From assembly GCA_964059195.1 (NCBI GenBank), contig CAXKWD010000013.1, positions 23,226,611 through 23,290,610 of the forward strand: a stretch of DNA of 64,000 nucleotides. Direction: 5' to 3'. This document shows, one piece after another, positions 3,201-50,765 of the stretch. Under the pieces are notes generated by a model. That model saw only the letters and a program-made list of their open reading frames with translations. It was not told where the DNA came from and made no database searches. The DNA is from Ectobius pallidus. Taxonomy: Eukaryota; Arthropoda; Insecta; Blattodea; Ectobiidae. How positions within the stretch are numbered: position 1 is the first letter of the stretch; every line of letters starts with the position of its first letter. The translations under genes and the position numbers were made by a program.

Positions 3201-3771
3201 AAATCTGTCGATTTACTTATTTATTGCGTTGATTTATTTTTTTATTTTTTTGGCCATTTTTAGCATGATTTTAACACTCTTTAATACCAAGTAGTCAAGA
3301 GTAATCAGCTACCGGTAGGCCTATATCCATTTTCATTTGAGACAATATACATCTTAAGGTACTATTTGGTATAAGATTACGGTAACTTCAAAAAAATGTG
3401 TGGTTAATTACTATGTAAAATTTAACAAACATGTGACCTTTTTTCCCCCACTCTTAATGGTGTAGATGTAGATGTAGATATCTCGTCCTGTAGATCCTGT
3501 GTTGAGCGGGGCTCAAGGATATAGAACACGTCACATCAAAAAAATACATGCATGTTATAACAATAATATAGGCCTACAGAAACTGTAAGCTGCCAAATTT
3601 ATCCAAGCTGGAAATATTCCTCCAAATTGTAGAAGGTTTGAGTTATTAAAAATTCATTGACAGCTGTTTTGAAAGGTTTGCTCTTTCTTTGAATACATAA
3701 TAATTTAATGTTGTTTGGAAGCTTGTTATATATCTGTACTGCAGAATAATAAGGGCCCTTCTGAAAGAGTT

Positions 3772-4510: not shown

Positions 4511-4672
4511 TGGGTCATTCTACAGAAAACCTGCATTTTAATGTCACAGGACAATATATTGGAAACTAGTTATAATGTTTGCAATTTTTCAAAATCAGAT
4601 ATTAAAATACAATATTATCTATTAGTTAGTACTTTACTTTGGAGAAATTTTTAACTAATTAGCTGTAAAAAG

Positions 4673-5102
4673 TTGTCCACAGAAGGTGATATCTCACTTC
4701 CGTGGACTGTCACAACCCTCAGGTAGAGAACTTCCAAAGATCATAGATACTGTACTTCTTAACATTTTCACTTAAAAAATATAGTATCTAGTCAGAAAAT
4801 ACTTCAGTTTAGCATAATGATGAATGAAATATTTTTTTTTTGTCCCCACTGTCAATATTTTTCAACCTGAGTTCATGTCACAAGGTTTGCCATCACTTCT
4901 GTGGACACTCAAAAAATGCCTAAAATATTCACCAGTGTGTGCTAGTTACCTTTTTCTGAGAGTCAGCTGAAGAGCAAAGGCACTCATATTGCAGAGTGGA
5001 GTATCTTTTGTTCTTCTGGATTGGATTTTTTTCATGTATATATCAAGTTTCTATTCACTTTTTGCATGTGGCATAGCTCATCCAGTCACTTCTGTGGTCT
5101 TT
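4673..5102. repeat. Left subterminal copies of the TCACTTCYGTGGACA motif
   Basis: One inverted copy lies at about 4674-4689 (GTCCACAGAAGGTGATA) and direct copies at about 4692-4706, 4888-4902 and a partial one near 5087. Multiple subterminal copies of one motif are usually transposase-binding sites in other transposons; the role here is inferred. Confidence 0.7.
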
Positions 5103-5236
5103 ATTAAAGTTTAGTTTTTAAGTTAAAAAATAATTTTTAGTATACATGACTTTTAGAACGTGATAATCTCAATAACCTGAAGAGCTTTCGTTTCTGACCT
5201 CACAATGCAAGGCAGTTTGCAAAGAAACGTAACTTT

Positions 5237-5311
5237 TTATCACTTCCGTGGACATCACTTCTGTGGACATGTGGATTCCACGGAAGTGATAACTGTCCAC
5301 AGAAGTGATTT
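5237..5311. repeat. Palindromic cluster of four TCACTTCYGTGGACA motifs
   Basis: Two direct copies (one CCG and one CTG version) are followed within 75 bp by two inverted copies, giving a near-symmetrical block. C/T alternation at one position is the only recurrent variation. A further direct pair lies at 7267-7306 near the right end of the transposon. Confidence 0.8.
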
Positions 5312-5823
5312 GATTCATTATTTTTAAAATTACGCACTTGCTGTGATGTGTCCAGTTGACCACTAACATTAAATTTTATAACATGCTGAATAAAAAAAAA
5401 TATCTATTAATATTTTAGTTCCTTACCAGTATTGTAACATTTTATCTTTCATAAACAGTTAAGTCTTATTCAATGAGTACACTATCATTAACATGTCATT
5501 TTTTTAATTAATATTCTACATTAGGTCTCTTTAGTGCCTCCTGATATAGGTCTACTCCTGCCCATCATAATTAATGGGATGGCTTGGGGAGGCTACTTAC
5601 TAGCCTATATTATATCTTGAATGGTAGGTTACTTATTATTTTCAAAACAAATTATAGGCCTATTATCATGTATTTGTAACAGCATGGTTTAGAAAATTTC
5701 ATGACTAATATCACTATAATGTATATATATATATATATATATATATTATATTACCATGGACAATTGTAATGTTCATTTTTAAAGCATAGATTGAAAATTT
5801 TTGATATTTGTAGGCCTACCAGA

Positions 5824-6510
5824 ATGGCAAGAGTAAAGAAAAATTATTTGAGGAAGAGAAGGAAACGAAAAAAAGGAAGTATGAGAAGAGCTAGAGTAAA
5901 AATGTAACAGGATTCAGCGAAGCATGAAGAAGAGAAATGAAAAGATAGGGAGTGATACCAAAGGGGAAAAAAAGCAGGAAAGGAAACCTGTGTCACAGCT
6001 GACACACAGGGAGAGAAGGAAAGTTCAAAAAGAGTGGAGAAAACATTCAACGAATTACAGACAGTTGAAAGAGCAAAATAATCATACTAGTTGATTTCAC
6101 TGAGAGTCATACTCCGCCTACCATTCCAGAAATTCAAGAACCGATGCCAGGCTCCACTACTACTCCTGATTTCGTTCAGTCACACGATAAGAGCCCTTTA
6201 CATTCACCAGATATAAAAATGAGGCTCAAGTAGAAGAGAAAGGGGTGAGAAGATAGTAAAAATACAAGACAAGAGATTACTTGAAATTACAGAAAGGAAA
6301 AATGCGAAGCTTTGACAGCAGAACCATTGTTTAAAAAAGCGGAAGAAAGGTAAAGAAGTGGTGTAAAAAATTTTCCAAAGTTGTGAGGAAAAAGCTAATT
6401 TATGCAGAAGTGCTACAATCACAGATTAAGTCAAAATACATACAATAAAAATCTGTGAAGGAAAAGAGAATATTGAAATTAATTACATGTTGAACATTTT
6501 TTGAAAAATA
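5824..6510 (+). pseudogene. Decayed basic protein of the TA transposon
   Basis: Stops and frameshifts break a strongly Lys/Arg-rich coding stretch. Recognisable blocks are REWRKHSTNYRQLKEQ (about 6020-6070), FTESHTPPTIPE (about 6094-6130), RKEKCEALTAEPLFKKAEE (about 6295-6355) and KLIYAEVLQSQIKSKY followed by KSVKEKRILKLI (about 6390-6480). This order of a basic WR.NS.RYR block, a TPP..PE linker and a late EKRILKLI helix resembles an unnamed multicopy arthropod transposon protein that I recall but cannot name. The catalytic core is not recognisable. Confidence 0.5.
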
Positions 6511-6733
6511 TCAATGCCAAGGTTATTTTATGTCACCTCACAATGGAGAACTACGCTGTCATATGGACAAACTTGGAGAAAAATGAAACTGAAATAGATA
6601 CGAGAAGATGTGATAAGTTTCGTAGAAAAATATGAATCTAGCAGACGTTAACTGCAATAACTGTTCACTGAAAGTGACAAATTGTTTTCGTTTCCTGACA
6701 TGCCTGATAAAGATATGGTTCCTAAAGAGAACA

Positions 6734-7014
6734 TTATAAAGAAATTCCGGCGTGCGTAGGCAAAGAGAGTTAAGTCCACCATCCTAAAAAATTGAGATAG
6801 GCCTATGTCCAAAGAGTTATAGATAAAAATGTTCTCTACATTTGTGTTAAGTCTAGTAAGTCTTATTGAAAATTGTACGGTAGTTATGGATGTGTGCCTC
6901 ATGGGTTTATCCATCTCTAAAGCTATGTTGGGCTGGTATAGTGTGTTAAGTCACTCTAATTCTCAGTAACAAGAAAGTGGACTTAACTCTCTTTGCTCGC
7001 GCACCCCGGAATTG
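6734..7014. repeat. Inverted repeat of ~37 bp inside the TA transposon
   Basis: Arm one (about 6738-6775) holds AAAGAGAGTTAAGTCCAC and arm two (about 6972-7010) its complement, with matching AATTCCGG outer ends and about 195 bp between. It may be a nested MITE or a hairpin of the host transposon. No target duplication is clear. Confidence 0.6.
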
Positions 7015-7757
7015 AAAACTCCAAACATGAACACTAGGGGAGGTTATGTATTTGAGAAAGACCTGTATCTTTTTGTAAACTTTTAATAATCTCTAAGTTT
7101 TTGTTTTATTTTTTAGTGACATCTTTTTTTATGACATCTTGTGTATGTTATACAAGTGGTTACTCTGTGGCAGTAAGTTAATTTCTTGAATAATAAACCT
7201 AAATCTGTTTTACCTTTAGAAAAAAAATGTGTCACAAGCATAATTGATAACAAAAGTCCATTATTATAACCAAAAGTCACTTCTGTGGACATGCAATCAC
7301 TTCCGTGGACAGCATCTTTCTTTTAGATTTTTTTTAAAGAAAACCAAAAAGAGATGACCTATGTCACTTAAACCACAGGTTAAGTACTTTAAAACTAGTG
7401 CTGTAAATATTTTTTTAGGACATATCTGATAAATTCGTTTTTTTATTATTCTTCCATCAAAACTGCAGGGTTTCTGTAGAATGACCCATATACAATAAGC
7501 TTCCAAACAACATTAAATTATTATGTATTCAAAGAAAAAGAAAATCCTTCAAAGGATCTCTCAAGAAATTTTTAATTACTCACACCTTCTACAATATGGA
7601 TGAGTATTTCCAGTTTGAATAAGTTTATAGTGTAGTATATTATATATCATTATTTATTACTTGCTTGTATATTGTAATCTGACGTGTTCTATATCCTTGA
7701 GTCCCACTCAACACAGGATCTACAGAACGAGATAACTACATCTACATCTACATCTAC

Positions 7758-10207: not shown

Positions 10208-11043
10208 TTGCAATGTCTTGGCGAATACGTATTTTGAAATGCCAGATCGCAGGCTTTATACATGGACATCACCAGATAGAAAGTAGGCCTACAGAAATCA
10301 AATTGATTATATAATTGGTAGGAAACGCTGGAAGAGCTCAATACGGTCAGTAAAAACAAAACTTGATGCCGACTATGGCTCTGATCATGAGCTGCTGATC
10401 GCAGAACTTAAAATGAAGTTGAAGAAGACACAAAAAACAGAAAGTCGGTGGAAACCAGAACTAACCAACATCCCAAAGGAATACAAGTGTCAAATACAAG
10501 AGGAACTTGGTAAAATAAACCTGCAACAAGAAAACTCAGAAGAACTGTGGGAAAGCATTAAAAATACTTTCAAAACAGTATCCAGACGTACTATACCTAT
10601 CAAAGAGAAGAAAAGGGGACCACACTGGATATCCCAGGACACACTAAAAGCAGTAGAAGAAAGACGCAAAAGAAAAATAGAAGGGAACTTGATTGTGACT
10701 AGGAATCTAAACAGTGAGATACAAAGAAGAATAAGGAAAGATAAAAGTAAGTATCTAAAGGAAAAATGTGGTGTCCTAGAAGAACTAAACAGGAAGGGTA
10801 GAACAAGAGACTTATACAAAGGAATAAGAGAAATAACAGGAAAGCCAGTCATAGGCTAGGTACAGGAACACTGAAAAATAAAGAAGGGATAGAACAGATT
10901 GAAAGAGAAGAGATAATAAAAAGATGGGAAGAATATACTAAAGAATTGTACAAGACAGATCCCACAAAAGCAGTGGATTTTAATGACCTGCCTTACTCTC
11001 TGGAACCAATGGTGATGGAATCTGAGGTTAAAGAAGCTTTAAA
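10208..11043 (+). pseudogene. RTE-BovB ORF, endonuclease end and linker
   Basis: Translation begins with NVLANTYFEMPDRRLYTW and the TSPDRK block. It is broken by an in-frame TAG inside TAGGCCTA at 10284-10291, resumes with YRNQIDYIIGRKRW and GSDHELL (APE-type endonuclease C-terminal His motif), and continues through a Lys-rich linker open from 10413 to 10859. A second break is the five-base excess at 10852-10858 (TAGGCTA), after which GTGTLKNKEGIEQIEREEIIKRWEEYTKELY is readable up to the LINE A insertion. Discounting six and five bases respectively gives one continuous frame with conserved spacing. Confidence 0.85.
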
Positions 11044-11399
11044 ACTACCAGAAACATGAATGATCTACACAGACCAAATAACTCGTTAAAACTCTTTCAG
11101 AAGGGTGCTTATTATTCTGCAGTACAGATATATAACAAGCTTCCAAACAACATTAAATTATTATGTATTCAAAGAAAGAGCAAACCTTTCAAAACAGCTG
11201 TCAAGGAATTTTTAATAACTCACACCTTCTACAATTTGGAGGAATATTTCCAGCTTGGATAAAATTGGCAGCTTACAGTTTCTGTAGGCCTATATTATTG
11301 TTATAACATGCATGTATTTTTTGATCTGACGTGTTCTATATCCTTGAGCCCCGCTCAACACAGGATCTACAGGACGAGATATCTACATCTACATCTACA
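11044..11399 (+). mobile_element. LINE A copy 3 (3' end only) inside the RTE LINE
   Basis: It starts within the ORF at ACTACCAGAAACATGAATG, encodes HRPNNSLKLFQKGAYYSAVQIYNKLPNN to the stop near 11262, then 3' UTR and a TACATC tail. The target duplication is TAAA at 11040-11043 and 11400-11403. Its 3' UTR matches copy 1, including a shared TAGGCCTA (11285-11292 here, 3569-3576 in copy 1), so this octamer was already present in the source element. Confidence 0.85.
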
Positions 11400-12882
11400 T
11401 AAAGCACATAGCGGTAAATAAAGCAACGGGGGTAGACGAGTTACCCATAGAACTGATCAAAGAAGGAGGAGAAGTAGCAATCAAAGTGTTGACAGCTCTC
11501 TGTAATCAGATTTGGAATAGTTGTGAATGGCCTCAGGAATGGAAAAGATCTATATTTCTACCACTCCCAAAGAAAGGAGATCTCAGTTTATGCTCTAACT
11601 ACAGAACAATTGCTTTGATTCCACATGCTAGCAAGGTATTGCTGAGGATAATACAAAGTAGACTGGCAATATACATAGAAAGAGAAGTAGCAGAAGAGCA
11701 AACTGGCTTCAAAAGGGGCAAGGGAACAAGAGATCAGATTGCAAAAGTAAAATGGATCTTAGAGAGGGCAGCAGAATATGGGAAAACAATATTTTTATGC
11801 TTTATTGATTATAGCAAAGCATTTGACTGCATTGAGCATAGTAGAATGTGGGACACCTTGAGAAGCATGGGAGTGCCAGAACATCTAATCACACTGCTGA
11901 AGAGCTTATATAACTTTCAAGAAGCAATAGTACGAACATCATACGGAAATACACAATGGTTTGGAATTTCCAAAGGTTTAAGACAAGGTTGTATACTATC
12001 CCCATGCCTTTTCAATATGTATAGTGAACAAATCATAAGAAGAGCCATATTTGAAGAAAGTCAAGGAGTCAGAATCGGTGGAAGGATGATAAAAAATTTA
12101 AGATACGCAGATGATACGACCATACTCACAGAGGATGAAGATGAAATGAAAGATCTGCTGAGGAAATTGAAAGAAGAAAGTGAAAAGGCAGGACTCATGC
12201 TCAATTTGAACAAGACCAAAATAATGACCACAGGAATGATAAGAAAATTTCAAATTGACGGGACTGAAATAGAAGTAAAAAACGAATACAATTTTCTGGG
12301 ATCCTTGATAACGAAAGATGGTTACAGTCGGAAAGAGATTAATAGAAGAATATCAATAGGAAGAACAGCAGTGACTAAATTGGACAATATCATAAAAGAC
12401 AAGGATATTAGTGTGCCATTGAAAGTCAAACTAATTGAAACGTTGGTGTTCCCCACCGTTACATATGGTTCGGAGAGTTGGACTGTTTTGAGAAGAGACC
12501 GGAAAAGAATTGATGCATTCAAACTCTGGACGTGGCGCAAACTCCTGAGAATTTCTTGGACAGAGAAAAGGACGAACAAGTCGGTCCTGGAAGACATAAA
12601 ACCCACAAGGTCGCTGGAAGCCATGGTAGTTAGAAGGAAGCTTCAGTAGGCTACTTTGGGCATGTCATGAGAAATCAAGGATCATTGGAACATGACATCA
12701 TGATTGGACTTGTCGAAGGATCTAGGAAACAAGGAAAACCTCGAACACGCTGGATAGATGATGTGAAGAAAACCGTCAATTTAAGTTGGGAAGCCATTAC
12801 CCACATTGTAAAGGACAGGAAAGAATGGCGGAAATTGACAGAAGTGAGAACCAGGAACAGGGAACGCACAAACGTCCACTAA
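11400..12882 (+). pseudogene. RTE-BovB ORF, reverse transcriptase and C-terminus
   Basis: After the LINE A insertion the frame resumes at KHIAVNKATGVDELPIELI. RT motifs are PLPKKGDLSLCSNYRTIAL, QTGFKRGKGTRDQI, CFIDYSKAFDCIEH (first Asp), GLRQGCILSPCLFN and NLRYADDTTIL (catalytic YADD near 12110), then FLGSLITKDG and the thumb. The frame stops at 12649 because of TAGGCTA at 12647-12653; without five bases it continues directly into YFGHVMR, ending at 12882 with the GKPRTRWIDDV domain. Apart from that block the RT is uninterrupted, so the copy is only moderately old. Confidence 0.9.
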
Positions 12883-19214: not shown

Positions 19215-20151
19215 TGTAAGGGACGGCCGGAAAATATATCCGGTCCGAGAGGGCAATGTAAGTCTTTAGGACCAATGTTAGGGTCAGGACCGTAAGGAGC
19301 AAATGTTAGGTTAAGGTACTTCTCAAATAGGAAATAAAACGTTGCTTTTAGGTTTGGAAGGGACTTCAATTGGAAGTGCATAAGATAGGAAAGATTAGCC
19401 ACCTCTGAATAGCTAGTGAGGACCAGATTCGAAAGAATCAAAATGAGAGCAATAGACTGTAACCTCAGGACACTGGTATCAGGAATCCACGGACTACTTA
19501 AGGAAAACAATCGAAACGTGAAATAATCACAACTTACTAGATTCACACACAATAATTATTTAAACTAATTGAAATAGAAACACTGATACATAAGATGCAA
19601 GAGTACGTTATCACACGTGGTTGAAAATATTAATTTCTTGAAAACCTTGACAAATAATATCTTAAAATGCGTAGATTAACTTGCTCTTGAAGTTAATACT
19701 AAACTTTTGCATGTAGTTTAGTCGTAAAAGCTGATATAAGCACTGGAACATGTAGCGTTGGTTGCACAACTGTTGCGTAATATCAAACTTCTGTAACTCG
19801 GAGAATTCACTCGCGAATTTGATGAATTATATGTAATTATGTATGAATAATTACTGAGAGCCACAATTGCGCACAATTGTGTCTAATTCACCGCTTCCAG
19901 AGCAAGTTTAATGAAACTTGGTAGAAAAAGCGGGAATTCCTCGAGCCTACTAGATACACTGTTATCTGCGTGAGGTCTCGTTCAATACTAACTGGCGTGA
20001 CGCTACACCACCACATATAACAAAAGAAATTAGCAAGTCATGCATGATCCCACAATGCTTTGAGGCGGGAATAAGATGACAATCAAAGCGGGACATTGCA
20101 AGCGGACAGTTTGAAACATTCTAAAGTAGAAACATGTTGCTTGCGCGAACA
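19215..20151 (-). repeat. 3' LTR of the BEL/Pao element
   Basis: The 937-bp repeat matches 25985-26921. On the minus strand it starts TGTTCGCGCAAGC and ends CCGTCCCTTACA. Confidence 0.95.
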
Positions 20152-20413
20152 TACCGACCCCTTTGAACTATTTAGTTCAACAAAATAGATAAAGAGCAAG
20201 CTATAAAAAATACATTCAAATGGACAAATAACATAAAGGAAAACACTTATTATATACATCACAATAACACAGTTTATCTCCGAAAAGTAAAACCTTATTG
20301 TGTAAGGAGGAAAACCAAATAACACTTATTACAATGTAACGGTTTGTCTACACTATAATTGCTTGTAAAACAATAAAGAGATATGAAATATTAATTGCAC
20401 TGTATTACACTTA
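20152..20413 (-). other. BEL/Pao 3' leader region and polypurine tract
   Basis: These 262 bp lie between the gag-pol stop and the 3' LTR. No reading frame is conserved. The polypurine tract adjoins 20152-20165. Confidence 0.7.
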
Positions 20414-23400
20414 TTATTGATCTGGCAATGGACATAATTTCACTACCGGGCGCTTGTATTCACCACTAGGAGTGCGAACTGTCGCCACACGAATTAGACC
20501 GTCTTCTCCCGGATGCACCTTGGTGATGACGCCTATCTTCCATTGAAGTGGGGCTACGTTGTCCTCCTTCAGAATGACTAAGATGCCTTCTCGCAGATTC
20601 TCACTGGAAGATGACCATTTTTGTCGCTGCTGAAGTGTATGCAAATACTCGGAAGACCATCTTTTCCATATATGATGCAAATGATTTTGTAGAATTTGCC
20701 ATTTTTCAAGACATTTCATATCATCTGTGGGAGGATGAGATGGCAGGGACGTGAGAGGCTCACCGATGAGGAAATGCCCAGGTGAAAGATATGAACAGTC
20801 GTTTGGGTCGTCACTAAGACGAACGAGTGGTCTGGAATTCAAACAAGCCTCGATCTGAGTGAGCAGCGTACAAAGCTGTTCAAATGTAAGGATTTGTGCA
20901 CCCATCGTTCTCCTTAGGTGAAACTTCATAGATTTCACCGCAGCTTCATGTAACCCACCGAAATGAGGAGATGACGGTGGAAGAAAATGCCAGGTATAAT
21001 CATTGGTTGCAGCAAAATCTTGAACTGACTTCTGAAATTCTTCGGATTGTAGTAGAATACGAAGATCTTTCAATTTGTGATTCGTGCCTATGAAATTAGT
21101 ACCGTTATCGCTGAAGATATCCTTGCATAGGCCACGACGGGAAGTAAATCTTCTTAGCGCGGCTAAGAAAGCTTCTGATGTGAGGTCTGATACCAATTCA
21201 ATATGAATGGCTTTAGTTACAAGACATACAAAGATTGCAGCGTATGCCTTGGCAATGATTTTACTTCTAGGCGATCCGTATCTTATGCTGAAGGGACCAG
21301 CATAGTCTACTGCTGTGCGTAGAAAGGGCCTAACAGGAGTTACTCTGTAGTTAGGAAGATTGCCCATTAGCTGTTGAGCAGATTGTGCCTTTAGTTTATA
21401 GCAAGTCAGACACTTGTGTAGAACAGATTTCACTAGTCTGCGCACGCAAGGGATCCAATATGCTTGTCTTAACGAGGCTATCGTAAGCTGATGTGACGCA
21501 TGTAAAAGCTTAAAATGTTCATGCTTTACAATTAGAGCAGTTAGATGGTGCTTGCTTGGCAATATGATCTGATGTTTAGCATCATATGCAAGATGAGATT
21601 TATCTATGCGACCACCAACTCGTAAAAGACCATTTTCGTCCAGAAATGGTGTTAATGTATGAATAGAACTTTTCGCAGAAGTTTCTTTCAGATTTTTAAG
21701 ATCTGCAATTTCACTCTTAAAAGATGAATGCTGAGCACTTTTAACACAAGTTTGTAAAGCCTGTTGAAGCTCTTCAGCTGTAATAGGTCCATGAAATTTT
21801 GTTTCATGGCGACATGCAGCAATAAATCTATTCATGTAGCATGTTACTCTTTGCAGGCGTCGGAGATCTGAGAATGTTGTAAGAAAATGTTCTCTCTCCT
21901 TTGTTGACACCAGACAGACATTTGCAAGTTGTTCTGATGAATCAGGAACACTTAATTGTTGTGGTTGTTTTGGCCAGGCTGTCTCTGGTGAAGATAACCA
22001 GTTAGGACCGTGCCACCACAAATCGATTTCAGATAACTGCTCACAAGAAATTCCTCTTGAGACAAGATCTGCTGGATTTTCATGTGTGGCAATGTGTCGC
22101 CATGTAGCAGTCTCCGAAAGTTCTTGTATCTGCGACACACGATTTGAAACAAAGGTTTTCCACTTTCGTGCATCAGTTTTGAGCCAAGAAAGTACCACTG
22201 TAGAATCTGACCACAAACGATTTTGTAAAGGTTGTACCTTGAGGTCACTTAGCACTTTGTTGTATAATTTAGCTAGCAGAAGTGCACCACAGAGTTCAAG
22301 GCGTGGAATGGTTTGCTTCTTTAGAGGAGAAACCTTAGATTTTGAACATAATAATTGAACAGTAGTTTCACCTTCACTATTTACAGAACGAATATATATA
22401 CAAGCTCCATACGCCTTCTCGGAGGCGTCACAGAAACCATGTAATTGAATGTCCTGCACTGTACCAGATGTAAGCACATATCTGGGAATACGCAAGGTGT
22501 GAATAGTAGCTAATGTTTTACAGATTTCCAGCCATTTCTCCACCAGATGCACAGGTACGGTTTCATCCCAGTCTAATTTCTCAATCCAGAGAGATTGCAT
22601 AAAGATTTTAGCATTTATGACAATAGGACTAGCCAATCCTAGCGGATCAAAGATAGATGAAATAAGTGAAAGGATATTTCGTTTGGTTAGTTTACCTTGC
22701 ACATGGGTTTGGAGTGAAGGATGTGATTGGATCTGAAATTTATCATTAACTGGGTGCCAAAGTAAGCCTAGGGCATGTATGTTTTCATTGTTATCAAGTG
22801 CCAGGGGCAATTGAGTTTCTCGATGTGAAGGAGGTACTGATTCCAATAAAGCTTCATGGTTGGAACACCATTTTCGCAGAGGAAATCCACCACAATTGAG
22901 CATATCTGTAAGCTCACTTTGCAGTTTCAGGGCTTCTTGGATGTCATTGTGGCCTGCTAAACAGTCATCAACATAAAATGATTCCCGTACTGCCTGAGCA
23001 GCAAGCGGATACTTCTCTTCTTCTTCTAGCGCAAGCTGATGTAAAGATCTTATGGCCAAAAATGATGCAGATTTGGTACCATAAGTGACAGTAGTTAGAG
23101 CGTAGTCTTGTATGGGTTCATTAGGACTTGAACGCCACACAATTCTTTGAAGATTCTGATCTTCTTTATGCATCCTTACTTGCCTGTACATTTTAGAAAT
23201 GTCTGCTGAAAATGCATACTTGTAGGTGCGGAACCGAAGTACAATAGATGAAAGATCGTCTTGTATAGTTGGCCCTAGTTTCAAGATGTCGTTCAATGAC
23301 TTGCCTGAAGACGACTTTGCTGAGGCATCGAATACAACTCGGGTTTTCGTGCTAGTTGAACTAGGCTTTATAACAGCATGATGCGGCAAGTAGTAACATT

Positions 23401-25633
23401 TTTCTCCAGGCTGAGGAAGTGAAACCTTCTTCATGTGGCCTAGATTTTCATACTCTTCCAGAAATTTGGAATAGTCTTCTTTTAAGCTAGGGTTAGCTTC
23501 AAGTTTGCGTTCCAGGTGTCCTAAGCGTTTTATAGCTTGTTGCCTAGATTCGCCCAGAGAATCTACAGGTTGATTCTTGGGGAGCTGCACTACGAATGCA
23601 CCATCAGTTGCACGAGTGGTGTTTTCTACGTAGTGTTCTTCACATTCACGTTCTTCTTTGGTGTGTACTGCGCTGGGGAAGTCTTCCAGCTCCCAAAATT
23701 GCCTTAGTTGCCTGTCCACGTTGTCGACAGTTACAAACAAGTTATGCTGTGAGAACGTCACCTTCTTGTTTTTAATGGCAGACTTAGGAACTATACCACT
23801 GATTATCCAACCAAGCTCGGTGTTGGTCAGAACAGGCTGATTTGGTTTAACTATTCTTTCGTTTGTGATTAATTGAAAGAATAAGTTGGCACCAATTAGC
23901 AATTGTACATCACCAGGTACATGGAATTTAGGGTCAGCTAATGGAAGTTCACTGGGAATATTGAATTTGTAGGGGTCAATTTGGACAGCAGGAAGCTTAT
24001 TTACAATGTGAGGTAGAACTAGGCAGTTTAGGTTAGCTTGGAAAGCGTGGATCCTGGATCTCATATTAATAGTGATGCTGTGACCACAAGCTGAGGTGCC
24101 ATTGATACCTCTTATGTGAGTCTCCACTGCGCTAGTTGGTAATTGTAATTTCCTTGCCAAATCTTCCGTGATGAAATTAATCTGACTACCAGAATCAAGC
24201 AAAGCTCTGCATTTTACAAGTTTTCCATTTTTGTCTTCTATTTCGACCACTGCAGTTGCAAGAAGAATTTCACATTGGCTAGCCTTTTCTTTTATAGAAC
24301 AGTAACTAGCTGGAATGTTTGTTGCCGTGCTGGCTGTAGAACTTTCTGAAGAGGGATTCTGTCGAGAAACCTTTTCACTTGACTGTGTGTCATTGTGTAA
24401 CCATTTACTATGAAAGCCTTTTCCACATTTGCAAAATGATTTTAGCTTGCACTGATCTCTTCTGTGGTTAGGAGAGAAGCAGTTAGCACACAAGCGTTTA
24501 GATTTAATGACATTCCATCGTTGTGATACACTTAGTTCTTGGAAGTTCTTGCAATTTAATAAGTTATGATTATCATCGCAGCATGGGCACTTGTCTTCTT
24601 TTGTCGCAACATAAGAATGACGAGTGTGTTTCTCTGACTTCTTCTTCGTACTTTGCTCACCTTTGTGCTTAGATGGGCTGGACGTGTTGTTTACATCTGC
24701 CAATACTTCAAGGGAATTTGCCTTAGCTTCTAAAAACTTGATGAGGTCTTGAAGTGGTGTGAAGTTCTGAGAATCAATTCTTCCTTCCCACTCTTTTCGT
24801 ACGCTCTCACAAAGGCTGTCCAAGATTAACTGCATGAGTATAATATCTTGTAATGGTATCTCTACATGTAAAGCTTCCACAGCATATATGTTGCTTTGGA
24901 ATTTGTTAAGAATACTACGAAGATCATTCACATTTTCACTCTTCATCGTTGGTAAAGAGAGTAGATTACGTACGTGAGCTGTGGCAATAATTCTTGTATT
25001 ATCGTATCTGGAACATATTAGATTCCATGCTACACTGAAATTTTCACTAGTCACTGGTAGATTTTTTATCAGTGCGTGTGCCTGGCCCTTTAATGATGAC
25101 AGAAGGTAATGCAATTTCTGTATCGGTTCTAAGGCTGCATTATTGGCTACAAGACTGCCAAACGTGTCTTGGAAATGTTTGAACGTTGTTATGTCCCCAG
25201 AGAAGGTTGGAAGCTGTATGGCAGGAAGTTGTATTGGCCTATTGTTGCACTGAGAAACAGCTGAATGACAAGTATGATGTGAATTGGCACTGTTATGAGA
25301 TCGCTGACTGTTCACAGAGTTTGCACTATGCACTTGCTGCTCGTGATGACATAGGATTGCACTGAGTTTAGCTTTTAACTCGAAGTAACCATTCATCATA
25401 CCTTCCTTGTATTCTGCATGTTCATCCAAATCTTCTTCTGCTTCCACAAGAGATTCTATTTGTGTTTGAACAATATCAAATTTGTCCCATATTTCATTTA
25501 TCTTGTCAAATTTAACTTTTAATAAGAACACATCGGTGTCTTGATTTGCAGTTTCACAAGACTTTTGTAGAAAAGTAAGCTCTCGCTTAATAACGCCTCT
25601 ACGTCTAATTAAGGCTCGTAAATCACCTTCCAT
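20414..25633 (-). CDS. BEL/Pao Gag-Pol polyprotein, 1739 aa
   Basis: A single uninterrupted frame from ATG at 25633. The N-terminal ~330 residues are Gag with the LPTFSGDITTFKHFQDTF block (DUF1759 type). Cys-His clusters lie at about 345-410 (CPCCDDNHNLLNC to CKCGKGFHSKWLH). An aspartic protease is at about 480 (LLDSGSQINFI). The RT has the YVDD catalytic site at about 889. RNase H is marked by CDASEKAYG at about 1070. The integrase has an H2C2 zinc finger (HEHFKLLHASHQL to CLTC), DYAGPF at about 1443, SDNGTNF at about 1509 and FGGLHEAAVK with the catalytic Glu at about 1563; a C-terminal DUF5641-like domain ends near PVVKLCPLPDQ. Length and order are normal for BEL/Pao. All catalytic residues are present, so it may be functional. 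Confidence 0.96.
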   Translation of the reverse strand: MEGDLRALIRRRGVIKRELTFLQKSCETANQDTDVFLLKVKFDKINEIWDKFDIVQTQIESLVEAEEDLDEHAEYKEGMMNGYFELKAKLSAILCHHEQQVHSANSVNSQRSHNSANSHHTCHSAVSQCNNRPIQLPAIQLPTFSGDITTFKHFQDTFGSLVANNAALEPIQKLHYLLSSLKGQAHALIKNLPVTSENFSVAWNLICSRYDNTRIIATAHVRNLLSLPTMKSENVNDLRSILNKFQSNIYAVEALHVEIPLQDIILMQLILDSLCESVRKEWEGRIDSQNFTPLQDLIKFLEAKANSLEVLADVNNTSSPSKHKGEQSTKKKSEKHTRHSYVATKEDKCPCCDDNHNLLNCKNFQELSVSQRWNVIKSKRLCANCFSPNHRRDQCKLKSFCKCGKGFHSKWLHNDTQSSEKVSRQNPSSESSTASTATNIPASYCSIKEKASQCEILLATAVVEIEDKNGKLVKCRALLDSGSQINFITEDLARKLQLPTSAVETHIRGINGTSACGHSITINMRSRIHAFQANLNCLVLPHIVNKLPAVQIDPYKFNIPSELPLADPKFHVPGDVQLLIGANLFFQLITNERIVKPNQPVLTNTELGWIISGIVPKSAIKNKKVTFSQHNLFVTVDNVDRQLRQFWELEDFPSAVHTKEERECEEHYVENTTRATDGAFVVQLPKNQPVDSLGESRQQAIKRLGHLERKLEANPSLKEDYSKFLEEYENLGHMKKVSLPQPGEKCYYLPHHAVIKPSSTSTKTRVVFDASAKSSSGKSLNDILKLGPTIQDDLSSIVLRFRTYKYAFSADISKMYRQVRMHKEDQNLQRIVWRSSPNEPIQDYALTTVTYGTKSASFLAIRSLHQLALEEEEKYPLAAQAVRESFYVDDCLAGHNDIQEALKLQSELTDMLNCGGFPLRKWCSNHEALLESVPPSHRETQLPLALDNNENIHALGLLWHPVNDKFQIQSHPSLQTHVQGKLTKRNILSLISSIFDPLGLASPIVINAKIFMQSLWIEKLDWDETVPVHLVEKWLEICKTLATIHTLRIPRYVLTSGTVQDIQLHGFCDASEKAYGACIYIRSVNSEGETTVQLLCSKSKVSPLKKQTIPRLELCGALLLAKLYNKVLSDLKVQPLQNRLWSDSTVVLSWLKTDARKWKTFVSNRVSQIQELSETATWRHIATHENPADLVSRGISCEQLSEIDLWWHGPNWLSSPETAWPKQPQQLSVPDSSEQLANVCLVSTKEREHFLTTFSDLRRLQRVTCYMNRFIAACRHETKFHGPITAEELQQALQTCVKSAQHSSFKSEIADLKNLKETSAKSSIHTLTPFLDENGLLRVGGRIDKSHLAYDAKHQIILPSKHHLTALIVKHEHFKLLHASHQLTIASLRQAYWIPCVRRLVKSVLHKCLTCYKLKAQSAQQLMGNLPNYRVTPVRPFLRTAVDYAGPFSIRYGSPRSKIIAKAYAAIFVCLVTKAIHIELVSDLTSEAFLAALRRFTSRRGLCKDIFSDNGTNFIGTNHKLKDLRILLQSEEFQKSVQDFAATNDYTWHFLPPSSPHFGGLHEAAVKSMKFHLRRTMGAQILTFEQLCTLLTQIEACLNSRPLVRLSDDPNDCSYLSPGHFLIGEPLTSLPSHPPTDDMKCLEKWQILQNHLHHIWKRWSSEYLHTLQQRQKWSSSSENLREGILVILKEDNVAPLQWKIGVITKVHPGEDGLIRVATVRTPSGEYKRPVVKLCPLPDQ

Positions 25634-25984
25634 GTTGTGTGTGAAATGTGGAAATTACTTGAAATTGACAGTTGAATTCTACCACTGCTGCACGATAATA
25701 TGTGAGTCAGCTGTTCACTGCTTTCTTGATGTCTTTTGAGCTGTTGTGTTTTCTGTAGTACTGAAGCACTGCCGAATAGATGATACAGAGTTTATGTACT
25801 AGAAATCGTAGCTCTTGAATACGCGGATGCCGTCGCGGTTGAGTCTGCATACAATGAACGAGATCGATAAGACGAGACAAACCATATATATGTGTGTGAA
25901 TAATGAAATTGTTTCTAGTAGTCCGGTCCGTTGAGGAACCAATGTAAGGGACGGCCGGAAAATATATCCGGCCCGGAGGACCAA

Positions 25985-26921
25985 TGTAAGGGACGGCCGG
26001 AAAATATATCCGGTCCGAGAGGGCAATGTAAGTCTTTAGGACCAATGTTAGGGTCAGGACCGTAAGGAGCAAATGTTAGGTTAAGGTACTTCTCAAATAG
26101 GAAATAAAACGTTGCTTTTAGGTTTGGAAGGGACTTCAATTGGAAGTGCATAAGATAGGAAAGATTAGCCACCTCTGAATAGCTAGTGAGGACCAGATTC
26201 GAAAGAATCAAAATGAGAGCAATAGACTGTAACCTCAGGACACTGGTATCAGGAATCCACGGACTACTTAAGGAAAACAATCGAAACGTGAAATAATCAC
26301 AACTTACTAGATTCACACACAATAATTATTTAAACTAATTGAAATAGAAACACTGATACATAAGATGCAAGAGTACGTTATCACACGTGGTTGAAAATAT
26401 TAATTTCTTGAAAACCTTGACAACTAATATCTTAAAATGCGTAGATTAACTTGCTCTTGAAGTTAATACTAAACTTTTGCATGTAGTTTAGTCGTAAAAG
26501 CTGATATAAGCACTGGAACATGTAGCGTTGGTTGCACAACTGTTGCGTAATATCAAACTTCTGTAACTCGGAGAATTCACTCGCGAATTTGATGAATTAT
26601 ATGTAATTATGTATGAATAATTACTGAGAGCCACAATTGCGCACAATTGTGTCTAATTCACCGCTTCCAGAGCAAGTTTAATGAAACTTGGTAGAAAAAG
26701 CGGGAATTCCTCGAGCCTACTAGATACACTGTTATCTGCGTGAGGTCTCGTTCAATACTAACTGGCGTGACGCTACACCACCACATATAACAAAAGAAAT
26801 TAGCAAGTCATGCATGATCCCACAATGCTTTGAGGCGGGAATAAGATGACAATCAAAGCGGGACATTGCAAGCGGACAGTTTGAAACATTCTAAAGTAGA
26901 AACATGTTGCTTGCGCGAACA
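25985..26921 (-). repeat. 5' LTR of the BEL/Pao element
   Basis: It is the same length as the 3' LTR. Its inner edge is followed by a 42-bp near-duplicate of the LTR end (25943-25984), giving two successive TTGGT(T)CCTC starts that could each be the primer-binding site. Confidence 0.93.
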
Positions 26922-27412
26922 GTGGGCTTACAACATTCTAACGATCGCGATGCTTTTATTACCACGGTATGACAAAAATAGCCAAAGCCAACTGCAATTG
27001 ATTTGACATTGAAATGTATTACTGAAATCTGATGCTTCGACACCGCTAAAATCACGTTTTCTGCCAGTTTTTCACTCACAACTCGCGAACGAAAGCTAAA
27101 ATTAAAAATCCGGCTTCGATGCGCATTCGCCCACCTTTCAGCCCATCTATGTTTAAAATTTCAGATCTCTGCGTTCAGTAGATTTCGCTGGGCATCGTGG
27201 ACAAGACAGAAATTAAAAATTAAGAGTATAATAACTTAGTTAAATCATTATATTAACACCTAAATCATGTGGACCACATATCACGATTAGATAGCGTCAC
27301 CTGGTAAAAGCGACCTCAGATTCGAGTTCCTTGGCCCAGAAAACCCCTGTATAGTGAGTTTCGTCCAAATCGAACAACGTTTGACCATATTTAGGCTAAT
27401 ATTGATTACCCC

Positions 27413-31526: not shown

Positions 31527-32678
31527 AATAGTCCAGGCAACGAACGAAAAATAGAAAAAAAAATCGTGTAGTTTTGAAATTTTGCAGAGATGTCGGAGGG
31601 AGTGTCCCGAACAACATACTAAAAGTCCCCGAAGGTGGGGGGTGAGCGGGGGGCAGGGGGGCCCGCAGAAGGTCCCAGTTTTAGGTTTTTCGCTTATATC
31701 TAAACAACGGTGCATCATAGAGGAAAAATTGCTATATACAAAATTAAAGCTGATAAAATTTCCTACAAGACTGATCCTACACATTTCTTTCTATTTCCAA
31801 TAGTTTTCGAGATATCCGCCAACGAAAATAACAAATTTTCGAAGACACCTCTTTCGCCTCGCCCTTTTCGACACACTTTGCCTTCTAGCGCTTCAGCCCT
31901 TAGGTATACAGCAATGTTCTCATGAAAGAAGTTGTAGCGAAATAAATTCGCTTTAAAATGAGTAGTCATTTGTTTTTTTTTATTGAAGTGTTCAAAAGTT
32001 ATAACAATTTAAAGTTTCGGTCAAATTTCGAGATTTCGAAAGAAAACCGTACATCGCACTTTCTCTATATTTAGGGGTAATGTATTTGTATATAAACTGT
32101 ATATTGTGTATTTACATCATGAAACAAGTGGAGAAATATAAAAAAACCATTAAAGTTGAATTTATTAAAAATCCGATCACGGTACAAGCACAGGACATGT
32201 AATGGAAAATACATTATATTTTAGGCAAGAAAGGAAAAGTGGGCACAAAAAAAATCATGTAGTTTTAAAATTTGGAAGAGATGTGGGGGAAAGTGTCTTA
32301 AACAACATAGTAAAAGTCCCCATGGATAGGGGGTGAGCGGGGTGTGGGGGGAACTTTTGAATGTAATTTCTCGCAGTTTTCCCTAAACACACTAAGGCTA
32401 TGGGTTCTAGCAAAAAACAGTTTATGCACAAAATTAACTACATAAAAGTTCTTATAAAATTGATCTGAATAGTATTTTTGTGGATTTAATGGTTCAGGAA
32501 ATAGAAGGATATGAAGTATGACATAGTTCTGGATATTCTGTTTTACATACACCTATATATTATATTTTTTTTTTTAAATGAAAGAAGATGATAATTAAAT
32601 TAGCATGATACCAAGCAAGCAAACTAGTTCTTAGAAAAATATACTTACTAATGGTTAACGTCACACATAAAACTCATC

Positions 32679-32716
<38 letters not shown>

Positions 32717-34555
32717 CATCATCATCATCATCATCATAATTATTATTATTCTTGTTGTAAAGCTTAGCCGTTCTATGTTACGTTAAAAAAATTACCGTTA
32801 TTTTGAAAAATGGTAAGGAATTAGATATATTGAGATATTGTAAGAATAGTAGGCCTACCTATTACTTTAAATAAATGTTTACTTGTCTATGTGGCTTCTG
32901 AGAATATTTGAACATCATATTTTGTCACTGTGCAACTCGGTGTGGTGGCAGATATGGATGCCGAAAAGCTGGTATTAAATGTTCATCCGTTTGTGGAACC
33001 TGTCATGGTACATGCACCAACAAGTATACCATTAGAAGAAGAAGAAGAAGGAGTTTAAAATTGATGACGACCAAGCAAAATAAGTAATTGTTCAGGCACT
33101 CTTTAATTAATGTTGTATATGTGTATAAATGCTGAATGTTGATAGAACAATATAACCCTAAGTTATCATACGATGTAGGCCTACTAGGATTCCAGTGTTG
33201 GAGACTGAAAAAAATAGACAACTATACATTTATTTCAAGTATTATGTAGGCGTACTAGGTCTTATAATTACTAAATATATCTAACTCTTCACAATTTTTC
33301 CAAATGATATTTTATAAGAAAAATATAATGGATAATAGGCCTGGTTTATACTTCTTATAACGTACACTCATACCATGAGATTTTTGTAAGCTTTATAATA
33401 ATAATGAGTTTTATTTTTCTTGTTTACCTTTAGTACGAATATTATTCTAAGAACTAGTTTGCTTGCTTGGCATCATGCTAATTTAATTATCATCTCCTTT
33501 CATTTTTTTAAAAATATATAATATATAGGTGTATGTAAAACAGAATATCCAGAACTATGTCATACTTCATATCCTTCTATTTCCTGAACCATTAAATCCA
33601 CAAAAATACTATTCAGATCAATTTTATAAGAACTTTTATGTAGTTAATTTTGTGCATAAACTGTTTTTTGCTAGAACCCATAGCCTTAGTGTGTTTAGGG
33701 AAAACTGCGAGAAATTACATTCAAAAGTTCCCCCCACACCCCGCTCACCCCCTATCCATGGGGACTTTTACTATGTTGTTTAAGACACTTTCCCCCACAT
33801 CTCTGCCAAATTTTAAAACTACATGATTTTTTTTGTGCCCACTTTTCCTTTCTTGCCTAAAATATAATGTATTTTCCATTACATGTCCTGTGCTTGTACC
33901 GTGATCGGATTTTTAATAAATTCAACTTTAATGGTTTTTTATATTTCTCCACTTGTTTCATGATGTAAATACACAATATACAGTTTATATACAAATACAT
34001 TACCCCTAAATATAGAGAAAGTGCGATGTACGGTTTTCTTTCGAAATCTCGAAATTTGACCGAAACTTTAAATTGTTATAACTTTTGAACATTTGAATAA
34101 ATAATAACAAATGACTACTCATTTTAAAGCGAATTTATTTCGCTACAACTTCTTTCATGAGAACATTGCTGTATACCTAAGGGCTGAAGCGCTAGAAGGC
34201 AAAGTGTGTCGAAAAGCGCGAGGCGAAAGAGCTTTCTTCGAAAATTTGTTATTTTCGTTGGCGGATATCTCGAAAACTATTGGAAATAGAAAGAAATGTG
34301 TAGGATCAGTCTTGTAGGAAATTTTATCAGCTTTAATTTTGTATATAGCAATTTTTCCTCTATGATGCACCGTTGTTTAGATATAAGCGAAAAACCTAAA
34401 ACTGGGACCTTCTGCGGGCCCCCTGCCCCCCGCTCACCCCCCACCTTCGGGGACTTTTAGTATGTTGTTCGGGACACTCCCTCCGACATCTCTGCAAAAT
34501 TTCAAAACTACACGATTTTTTTTTTCTATTTGGTGTTTTTCGACGTTTATTGACT
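31527..34555. mobile_element. 3-kb foldback element with ~1.1-kb inverted arms
   Basis: The left arm (31527-32637) and right arm (about 33440-34555) are nearly identical inverted copies; the outer ends read AGTCCAG. The spacer of about 800 bp includes ATT/ATC microsatellites and a 34-codon frame at 32952 (MDAEKLVLNVHPFVEP). Within each arm, two diverged direct units start near 31560 and 32255 (both contain ATAGTAAAAGTCCCC-like and GGGGGTGAGCGGGG blocks). Short frames in the arms exist only because of the duplication. No clear target duplication or transposase is seen, so the class is unknown. Confidence 0.8.
32680..32750. repeat. (ATT)n(ATC)n microsatellite
   Basis: A compound triplet run lies in the spacer of the foldback element, just inside the left arm. 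Confidence 0.9.
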
Positions 34556-47809: not shown

Positions 47810-50716
47810 TTATAGACAGTTATTGAAATATTCATTAAGCAGGTGGGCTTTAACCTGTTTTTTGAAAACTGTTAATTTGCTTGCTTTTTTGATATCCTGA
47901 GGTAGATTATTATATTGTTTTGTCATCATGCTAATAAAACCCTTTAAACCGTATTTGGATGTTTCAGTAGTATTTACTATGAGGTTATTTTGACCTCTTG
48001 TATTATGATCATGTATATTATTGAATTTAGGGATGTAAATCTTACTATGGAACAGATCATTGAGAACTTGAAAAGCAAAAGTAGTGATTGATAGTTTTAG
48101 TGATACTACCAGGGGAGTAATTCCTGATTCCTGAAAAATCTGCTTCGTGGGAGTTAGGAAGTCTAAGTTAAAAATTATCTTTATAGCCCTGTTTTGTAAT
48201 GTTTCAAGTTGTCGTAGTTGAGCCTTATTACAGGATTGCCACACTATATCCATATATTTAAGATGCGAATGTATAAGTGCATAATAAACATTTTTTAAAA
48301 GAGGTCTGGGTAACCCATTGTCTCTCAGTCTAGCAAGAACCCCAATAACTGATATTATTTTTGTTTTTATTTTTTCAATATGGTTGTTCCAACTAAGGGT
48401 AGAGTCTAAAATAAGTCCTAGAAAAGTGATGTTATTTACCTCTTGAATTATTACATTGTCAAGTATCAGATGTTGATGTTGGTTATGGATAAAGCTAGGT
48501 TTCCTGAATAAGATATATTTTGTTTTATTAGTATTTAGGACCAATTTGTTATATTTTAACCATTTATTTAGAAGATTCAGGTCTGTTTGCATGTCATTAA
48601 TAATAGATATTTCAGAAGTTCCAGAGTAAAAAATTGACATGTCATCCGCAAATAAGGTGATTTTACCTATTAATTTAAGGTTAGTGATATCGTTAATAAA
48701 TAGTAAAAATAGTATAGGACCGATAACCGAACCTTGTGGAACACCAGATTTTAATTTCAGCATATTCGATTTAACATTATTAGTGGAAACATATTGATAG
48801 CGATTTTTAAGGTAACTTTCAAACCATCTAAGAGGAATACCTCTAATACCTAGATTGTTCATCTTACTAAGAAGCAAATCATGATCTACCATATCGAAAG
48901 CCTTTTTCAAGTCAATGAACAGGCCAGCTGCAATCTGATTATTATCTAGTGCTTTCTGTATGGGGACAATTGCATCAATCACTGCATTTACAGTGCTAGA
49001 TTTTTGTAAGAATCCATATTGGGCAGAGTTGAGAATTCTATGTTGGGGATTGTTTATGAATGATAATAACCTTTTTTTCATAACTTTCTCTATTATTTTT
49101 GAGAGTGTTGGTAAAATACTAATAGGTCGATAATTGTTTGGATCCATTTTCTCCCCACCCTTATGTATAGGAATAATTTTGGCGGTTTTAAAAATGTCAG
49201 GCATTATGCCTTCACTGAAAGAATCATTTATAAGTTTGACTAGGTGTGGGAGCAGATGTTGTCCACAACGTTTGAAGGTAAGGCTTTGGATGTTATTATC
49301 AGTCATGCTGCATTTATTCTTAAGTGTTGAAATTATGTTATTCACTTCATCTACATTAGTAGGTAATAGGAAAAAGGAATTTTCATTAATATTTATGGTG
49401 TTTATCTCATCTGTAATGACTTGTGGATTAGGTCTTAAAGATATCGGAATATTGACATAGAAGTTATTTAGTATGTTACAGACATCATGATTGTCAGATA
49501 TCACTTTATTGTCATATTTTAATTTAATAATTTGAGCATTATTTGGTCTACTTTTATGTAATAGATTGTTAGCAATATTCCACATTTTTTTTTGATCATT
49601 AGTATCTTTAGTTAATCTAATAAAATATTGCTTTTTTAGTTGCTTTTTCAATCTAACGACTTGCCTAGATAGATTTTTGTAATCATTGTGTAAATTTATA
49701 GATGTATTGATTTTTTTTGTTTTGGCAAAGAGGATATCTCTTCTTTTTACTAATGCTAGCAATTCCTCATTGACCCAGGGTTTGCGAGGTTGATGGGCTA
49801 CTTTTATTATTTTTTTTACTGTACAATCAATTTCCCCTGTTTTTATATAATTTACCATATGTTCCGCTAATTTATTTACATTTTCAGTATCATAGTTGAA
49901 GGGTGTATTGGCATAATATAAGTTCAACTTAGGGTAATCAACTTTAGTACAATACTTGTTGTTGCAAGTGGTTTGAGGTGGAGCATCAATAATAGGATTA
50001 ACATAGAGAATAAGTAAATTGTGGTCACTTATATCAGAACAAATGTTGGCCAATGTTAATTTAACATCGGTGAAGTCGGTGAGAATATGATCTAGAAGTG
50101 TAGCTGAGGTGGATGTTACTCTAGTAGGTGATCTGTTGCAGAGTTTAAGATTATAACTATTACAAAGATCAAGATATGCTTTCACAAAGTTGTTATCCCT
50201 ATCAAGTAAATTGATATTAAAGTCTCCAAAAATAAAAGTTTGACACTTTGGTTTGTGTAATAATATTGCTTCCAAATCAGGTAAGAATTCAGGTGTGTTA
50301 TCAAATTTCGGGTTGTATACCCCTATAATATTAAGCAATATATTATTGTGCTTTTTAATAGTAAGGCACAATATACTGTGGTATTTATTGACATTAACCT
50401 CTTTTTCCACAGTTAAAGAGTCTTTGATATATATGGAAATACCACCTCCTTCTTGAGTCCTTGTTATATGTGTTGGGGTGAAGCCACATATATTAAAGTA
50501 TTGTATTTCATTTTGTTTAAGCCAGGTTTCAGCAATTATGATGATGTCAATATAACCCAATCTATCCAGCATAAATTCCAATTTCTCTAGCTTATGTCTA
50601 AGGCTTCTTGCATTGAAATAGAGAAAACTTAAATTAAATCTATTAGGGTATTTAGATTGACATATGAATTGATCCATATGTTCATAGCTTGATTCAGAGA
50701 TGTCTAGGAAATCCAT
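47810..50716 (-). CDS. LINE D ORF2: endonuclease and reverse transcriptase, 968 aa
   Basis: An ATG at 50716 opens an uninterrupted frame. Residues ~30-245 form an APE-type endonuclease (NARSLRHK, AETWL at ~62, GDFNIN at ~163, DHILTDF, SDHNLLI at ~232). A linker with KPWVNEELL is followed by the RT at ~480-760: NYRPISILPTLSKI, DLKKAFDMVDHD (~604), GVPQGSVIGPILF (~655) and FADDMSIF (~689, catalytic FADD). The C-terminus has FLGLILDSTLSWNNHI and LPQDIKK. Length is typical. The endonuclease nicks the target and the RT performs target-primed reverse transcription. All catalytic residues are visible, so the protein could be active. Confidence 0.93.
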   Translation of the reverse strand: MDFLDISESSYEHMDQFICQSKYPNRFNLSFLYFNARSLRHKLEKLEFMLDRLGYIDIIIIAETWLKQNEIQYFNICGFTPTHITRTQEGGGISIYIKDSLTVEKEVNVNKYHSILCLTIKKHNNILLNIIGVYNPKFDNTPEFLPDLEAILLHKPKCQTFIFGDFNINLLDRDNNFVKAYLDLCNSYNLKLCNRSPTRVTSTSATLLDHILTDFTDVKLTLANICSDISDHNLLILYVNPIIDAPPQTTCNNKYCTKVDYPKLNLYYANTPFNYDTENVNKLAEHMVNYIKTGEIDCTVKKIIKVAHQPRKPWVNEELLALVKRRDILFAKTKKINTSINLHNDYKNLSRQVVRLKKQLKKQYFIRLTKDTNDQKKMWNIANNLLHKSRPNNAQIIKLKYDNKVISDNHDVCNILNNFYVNIPISLRPNPQVITDEINTININENSFFLLPTNVDEVNNIISTLKNKCSMTDNNIQSLTFKRCGQHLLPHLVKLINDSFSEGIMPDIFKTAKIIPIHKGGEKMDPNNYRPISILPTLSKIIEKVMKKRLLSFINNPQHRILNSAQYGFLQKSSTVNAVIDAIVPIQKALDNNQIAAGLFIDLKKAFDMVDHDLLLSKMNNLGIRGIPLRWFESYLKNRYQYVSTNNVKSNMLKLKSGVPQGSVIGPILFLLFINDITNLKLIGKITLFADDMSIFYSGTSEISIINDMQTDLNLLNKWLKYNKLVLNTNKTKYILFRKPSFIHNQHQHLILDNVIIQEVNNITFLGLILDSTLSWNNHIEKIKTKIISVIGVLARLRDNGLPRPLLKNVYYALIHSHLKYMDIVWQSCNKAQLRQLETLQNRAIKIIFNLDFLTPTKQIFQESGITPLVVSLKLSITTFAFQVLNDLFHSKIYIPKFNNIHDHNTRGQNNLIVNTTETSKYGLKGFISMMTKQYNNLPQDIKKASKLTVFKKQVKAHLLNEYFNNCL

Positions 50717-50765
50717 TATGAAAATTATGCAAGAAATTAGGTTAGGTTACATAGTGTAGTCCTAT

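Follow-up and report, generated by a model that had tools for sequence, protein, structure and literature searches.

Transposons of the Tc1/mariner superfamily are cut out 3 nt inside the element ends. Excision of mariner-type elements leaves the target site duplication together with a few nucleotides of the element end, as set out in the relevant passages of PMC4561436, and the Sleeping Beauty footprint is given as TACAGTA or TACTGTA in the corresponding part of PMC4378557. This study concerns small insertions of related form in a 64,000-nucleotide stretch of the genome of the insect Ectobius pallidus (hereafter the window), located on contig C13 of a host assembly of 2,124,618,226 bases (2.12 Gb). 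The insertions occur at TA in two forms, are recent and absent from sister copies, and are found in unrelated repeats and in genome-wide excess. As in the Sleeping Beauty footprint, TA flanks 3 nt in two reverse-complementary forms (PMC4378557, in that part); however, the core here is GGC/GCC rather than CAG/CTG, a second form of 4 nt (GGCC) exists, the natural number is very large, and the class is known from scars alone. Footprints of Mariner/Stowaway MITEs likewise keep the target duplication with a few nucleotides of the element end (PMC4561436, same passages), but the elements are known there, whereas here scars alone have been seen. A further likeness is to ISL2EU elements of the PHIS group, whose ends usually begin with GG, resembling the putative GGC ends proposed below, although in ISL2EU the duplicated dinucleotide is AT, within the target A-AT-T (the sections of PMC4482050 on these elements), and here it is TA. 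Among the literature matches listed, no publication describing a TAGGC(C)TA insertion class was found; PMC522874 and PMC4729461 were set aside, as the word occurs there in primers. A zebrafish sequence in part of a soat2 paper contains GTTAGGCCTATG and TTGTAGGCTACG (PMC5147938), and a trout paper appears to contain both words (PMC2275977); a wider spread in fish is a lead, not a test.

Three blocks interrupt a BovB-like RTE LINE copy, and further sites in the window lie in LINE A and in another repeat (window coordinates):

10216..12880, + strand: BovB-like RTE copy, extent taken from alignment to sister copies; a LINE A piece interrupts it at 11044-11399
10286..10291, unstranded: break 1, GGCCTA after the TA at 10284-10285; frame kept, TAG stop introduced; block absent from 14 of 14 copies reaching the site
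10854..10858, unstranded: break 2, GGCTA after the TA at 10852-10853; frameshift; no block in any of 31 other copies judged by span or of 2 read as sequence
12649..12653, unstranded: break 3, GGCTA after the TA at 12647-12648; frameshift; no block in any of 39 other scored copies judged by span or of 8 read as sequence
11285..11292, unstranded: TAGGCCTA in a LINE A 3' end; site matches the LINE A copy at 3569-3576
3569..3576, unstranded: TAGGCCTA in another LINE A 3' end; site matches 11285-11292
27234..27238, unstranded: ACTTA extra after TA (TA-ACT-TA); absent from a copy in stretch L017, one comparison only

The words TAGGCCTA (10284-10291) and TAGGCTA (10852-10858 and 12647-12653) lie exactly where the preliminary description had placed them. 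All three had been read as frame breaks; breaks 2 and 3 are indeed 5-bp frameshifts, but the 6 bp inserted at break 1 keep the frame and introduce a TAG stop. The RTE copy has an RVT_1 domain match within 11348-12646, and its reverse transcriptase is 49-68% identical to the best 120 of 4,571 relatives. A tblastn comparison with 56 BovB-like relatives of at least 560 aa, drawn from these best 120 and covering breaks 2 and 3 (the relatives stop short of break 1), bears out the earlier statement that removal of 5 bp restores the frame: exactly 5 extra nucleotides are needed by all 51 relatives aligning on both sides of break 3 and by 45 of 51 at break 2, with the remaining six needing 8, 11 or 14, i.e. 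5 plus whole codons. The damaged copy is a substrate only, and nothing suggests that the RTE itself makes the insertions.

Sister copies of the RTE family examined at the three breaks contain none of the blocks, so that an ancestral or consensus origin is ruled out and the blocks are, as had been proposed, insertions that turn TA into TAGGC(C)TA; among the copies examined they are private to the window copy. The block at break 1 is missing from 14 copies read as sequence (L033 and 13 of 20 short stretches, the other seven being flanking DNA; L035 ends just before the site). At break 2, where all candidates were scored and gave 39 matches, 28 of the 31 other spanning copies are exactly 5 bp shorter, one is 4 bp and two are 9 bp shorter, and sequence was read for L033 and L035 only, both without the block. 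At break 3, a 501-bp query matched 39 other scored copies at 97-99% identity, with spans of 496 bp in 36, 495 bp in two and 494 bp in one (5, 6 and 7 bp shorter than the window copy); this count covers the best 40 of 196 candidates, scored in a best-first order that disfavours gapped copies, and the eight copies read as sequence were drawn from the same set. The LINE A piece splits the eight pairwise alignments at 11044-11399, and they show no other indel private to the window copy. They do show that copy L034 has an insertion of its own, tcaatatgTA-GGCTA-tagtgaac, at the place of window position 12022, which is absent in the window copy. Four distinct GGC(C)TA insertions versus three single-base indels were counted in the eight alignments; without the window copy, which was chosen for its insertions, the count is one versus three. 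Nine copies compared over 535 columns have 19 singletons and no shared variants, or approximately 0.4% per copy by our own arithmetic. The family is therefore young and star-shaped, and the three insertions are recent because RTE copies are only about 1% different from one another. The window copy is unusual in its insertions, as none of 31 other copies has a net gain of 5-6 bp across approximately 340 bp.

The same change recurs elsewhere, as had been suspected, both as filled and empty sites in other repeats and as an excess of the words across the genome. In a 254-kb sample (19 random 10-kb stretches plus the window, with satellite stretches L023 and L024 dropped before counts), 350 gaps of 1-12 bp between repeat copies were tabulated. 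TA was duplicated in 11 of 29 insertions of 5 bp and in three of nine insertions of 6 bp; the cores were GGC/GCC four times (at three sites, L017:9394 and L029:5225 being one), GGCC twice, ACT three times, AAA twice (one site), and TAT, TTC and CCGG once each. The AAA and TAT gaps may be ordinary local duplications. For L010:9113, L012:7167 and L017:9394, an empty site is seen in copies from two or more other stretches, while L011:5579, L029:9948 and the ACT sites have one comparison each, which alone does not tell insertion from deletion. TA-ACT-TA was also found at L012 2341 and L014 6920, making three unrelated sites with one other copy each, and is a possible second footprint class, sister to GGC(C).

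A satellite at the start of contig C1 provides a further case: ctaacTActatgg is the usual reading of its units of approximately 50 bp, and three stretches each contain one unit with ctaacTAGGCCTActatgg. Stretches L001-L008, in the first 40 kb of this contig, all belong to the one satellite, with the scarred unit recurring along the array. In addition, the two LINE A copies that share a TAGGCCTA site are 97.7% identical, so the scar was inherited through retrotransposition, which supports germ-line inheritance. LINE A is also the target of an insertion of about 3 kb at 4513-7492, which has inverted ends TGGGTCATTCTACAG beside TA, contains four of the TAGGC(C)TA motifs, and corresponds to an empty site in L027. 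None of the 51 motifs of the window lies in its young elements, a BEL/Pao-like element at 19215-26921 and a LINE frame at 47810-50746, where approximately ten would be expected at outside density (own arithmetic, with coding constraint uncontrolled). The former, which we take to be BEL/Pao, is recent, with LTR copies 99.9% identical and a 1746-codon frame at 20414-25654 on the - strand; the latter has 978 codons.

Counts of the words point to insertion on a very large scale. The window contains 21 occurrences of TAGGCCTA (0.52 expected) and 30 of TAGGCTA (6.0 expected). Across the whole genome, TAGGCCTA occurs 520,230 times compared to 14,707 for its reversed word, and TAGGCTA (318,704) and TAGCCTA (321,427) together 640,131 times compared to 142,758 for theirs (71,487 + 71,271), although the reversed control words contain CG and may run low, which may exaggerate the excess. 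The near-equality of GGC and GCC cores is a weak feature, as strand symmetry alone would give it. In the 254 kb, GGCC ranks top among TA-N4-TA words (57 vs 2.4 expected, order-1 model), and GGC/GCC ranks top among TA-N3-TA words by order-1 ratio (81 vs 24.4), followed by CAG/CTG (95 vs 40.9 by order 1 and 54.8 by order 2). Candidates for the source of the CAG/CTG excess are TA-flanked inverted-repeat elements of 518-604 bp beginning CAGGG (L014 3977-4587; L017 2105-2647 and 5359-5876; L019 5922-6478). The motif excess persists against order-1 to order-3 models, which rules out composition as its cause. It amounts to roughly 0.9 to 1.0 million sites by either yardstick, about half in each form, by our own arithmetic and with some sites being copies of one event. 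The genome carries several hundred thousand or more micro-insertions of TA to TAGGCTA or TAGGCCTA, likely as transposon scars.

The reading that we favour, at a probability of about 0.62, is that the blocks were left behind as footprints when a cut-and-paste transposon of Tc1/mariner type, which duplicates TA and has inverted repeats beginning 5'-GGC, was excised. Such an element would insert at TA, mostly at R-TA-Y, and duplicate the TA. At the three breaks as well as in L034, the satellite and the repeat pairs, the empty site reads TA, as for insertion at a TA target, and filled sites hold a GGC/GCC or GGCC core between two TA, the duplication typical of a Tc1/mariner-type footprint. The target looks like R-TA-Y: in 114 flanks on both strands, the base before the first TA is G 0.44, A 0.41, T 0.12 and C 0.03, compared to G 0.17, A 0.33, T 0.34 and C 0.15 before all TA. 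Excision would cut 3 nt inside each end, leaving each flank with TA and a 3' overhang GGC; end joining over a 3-nt overlap with a mismatched middle base would then yield TAGGCTA or TAGCCTA (5 bp more than the empty TA), and joining over a perfect 2-nt GC overlap would yield TAGGCCTA (6 bp more). By enumeration, only four of the 64 possible 3-nt starts (AAT, CCG, GGC and TTA) are compatible with a mismatched 3-nt join as well as a perfect 2-nt one. An ACT start allows the 3-nt join only, and all three ACT events are 5 bp. Two other accounts were rejected: a 2-nt stagger (GG plus CC) fails to explain TAGGCTA, and telomere-like joins do not fit a T before the TA in only 12% of cases.

Because no GGC-ended element was found, the mechanism (the former element, its ends, the 3-nt stagger and the end joining) is one that we infer. 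Three kinds of scan of the 254-kb sample, in which such an element was sought by k-mers, inverted ends, large insertions and repeat boundaries, revealed no GGC-ended repeat. Repeated TAGGC words were discarded as element ends, being mostly in satellites L023 and L024 or, in L029, inside a dispersed repeat, as was a GGC end pair at 32224/33857 that sits within the arms of a long inverted repeat. This inverted repeat (31549-34531) is large, with arms of approximately 1.3 kb that are 92% identical. Neutral scars accumulate at copy number times excision rate per generation; therefore, a few hundred copies excising at 1e-3 could build up about a million scars within a few million generations, and with such a modest number of high-turnover copies, intact ones would not be expected in 254 kb. 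Tc1/mariner-superfamily transposases are present in the genome, as seen from DDE_3 (PF13358) matches (best 150 of 6,151 candidates scored), which include several open frames of at least 360 aa, any link of these to the scars being hypothetical. Three DDE_3 families were probed: family A has readable ends, TA followed by CCTTTTCAACTTC, and is excluded as the scar source as these begin CCT and not GGC, while families B and C (the latter at two loci) showed no ends within reach of the probed DNA. The family with these CCTTTTCAACTTC ends, seen at C6:87819585 (L038, L039), is Tc1-like and has tandem repeats just inside the ends.

There are several potential alternatives to excision footprints. The scars are abundant, yet no GGC-ended element occurs in 254 kb, and the inserted core is almost constant; both observations would suit a direct micro-insertion, in which an enzyme makes a 2-nt staggered cut at TA, fill-in duplicates the TA, and GGC or GGCC is added with no element ever involved. 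We know of no enzyme that makes such insertions, and the process predicts neither the linked GGC/GCC and GGCC forms nor a separate ACT class. We regard it as possible but doubtful, and hold equally tentatively its corollary that an element-free enzyme acting at R-TA-Y produced scars numbering several hundred thousand or more, with very recent activity, and may also be at work in fish. It is also improbable, more so than direct insertion, that a TA-duplicating superfamily other than Tc1/mariner left the scars. The superfamily assignment draws on the two features seen, the TA duplication and the GGC core, which leaves room for another source; however, ISL2EU is rejected by its duplication of AT, and PIF/Harbinger duplicates TWA and mostly leaves precisely (on these superfamilies, the pertinent parts of PMC4482050 and PMC4561436).

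Programmed removal, in which the germ line retains the element and the sequenced body tissue loses it by excision in the manner of ciliate internal eliminated sequences, would account for many scars without elements, but the scar site common to two LINE A copies and the recurring scarred satellite unit indicate inheritance through the germ line and make it very unlikely. Least credible is that the blocks are an artefact of sequencing or assembly, or that composition or selection maintains a common word: no point in its favour was found, the excess holds against order-1 to order-3 models, and the blocks are private to one among many near-identical copies in the RTE family, with a site shared within a LINE A subfamily.

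The preliminary description had also raised the possibility of a novel class of insertion. That the insertions occur at TA and are recurrent stands; a wholly new class is less likely because excision of a TA-duplicating transposon would be expected to leave just such a duplicated TA, paired products of 3 nt (GGC/GCC) and 4 nt (GGCC), and TA-ACT-TA. If no element existed, the insertions would represent a new mutational process. If they are footprints, they record the past excisions of a transposon even after its copies are gone, and copy-based repeat annotation would miss them. With so many scars, a single mobile element or enzyme would rank as a major source of stops, frameshifts and small indels in a genome.
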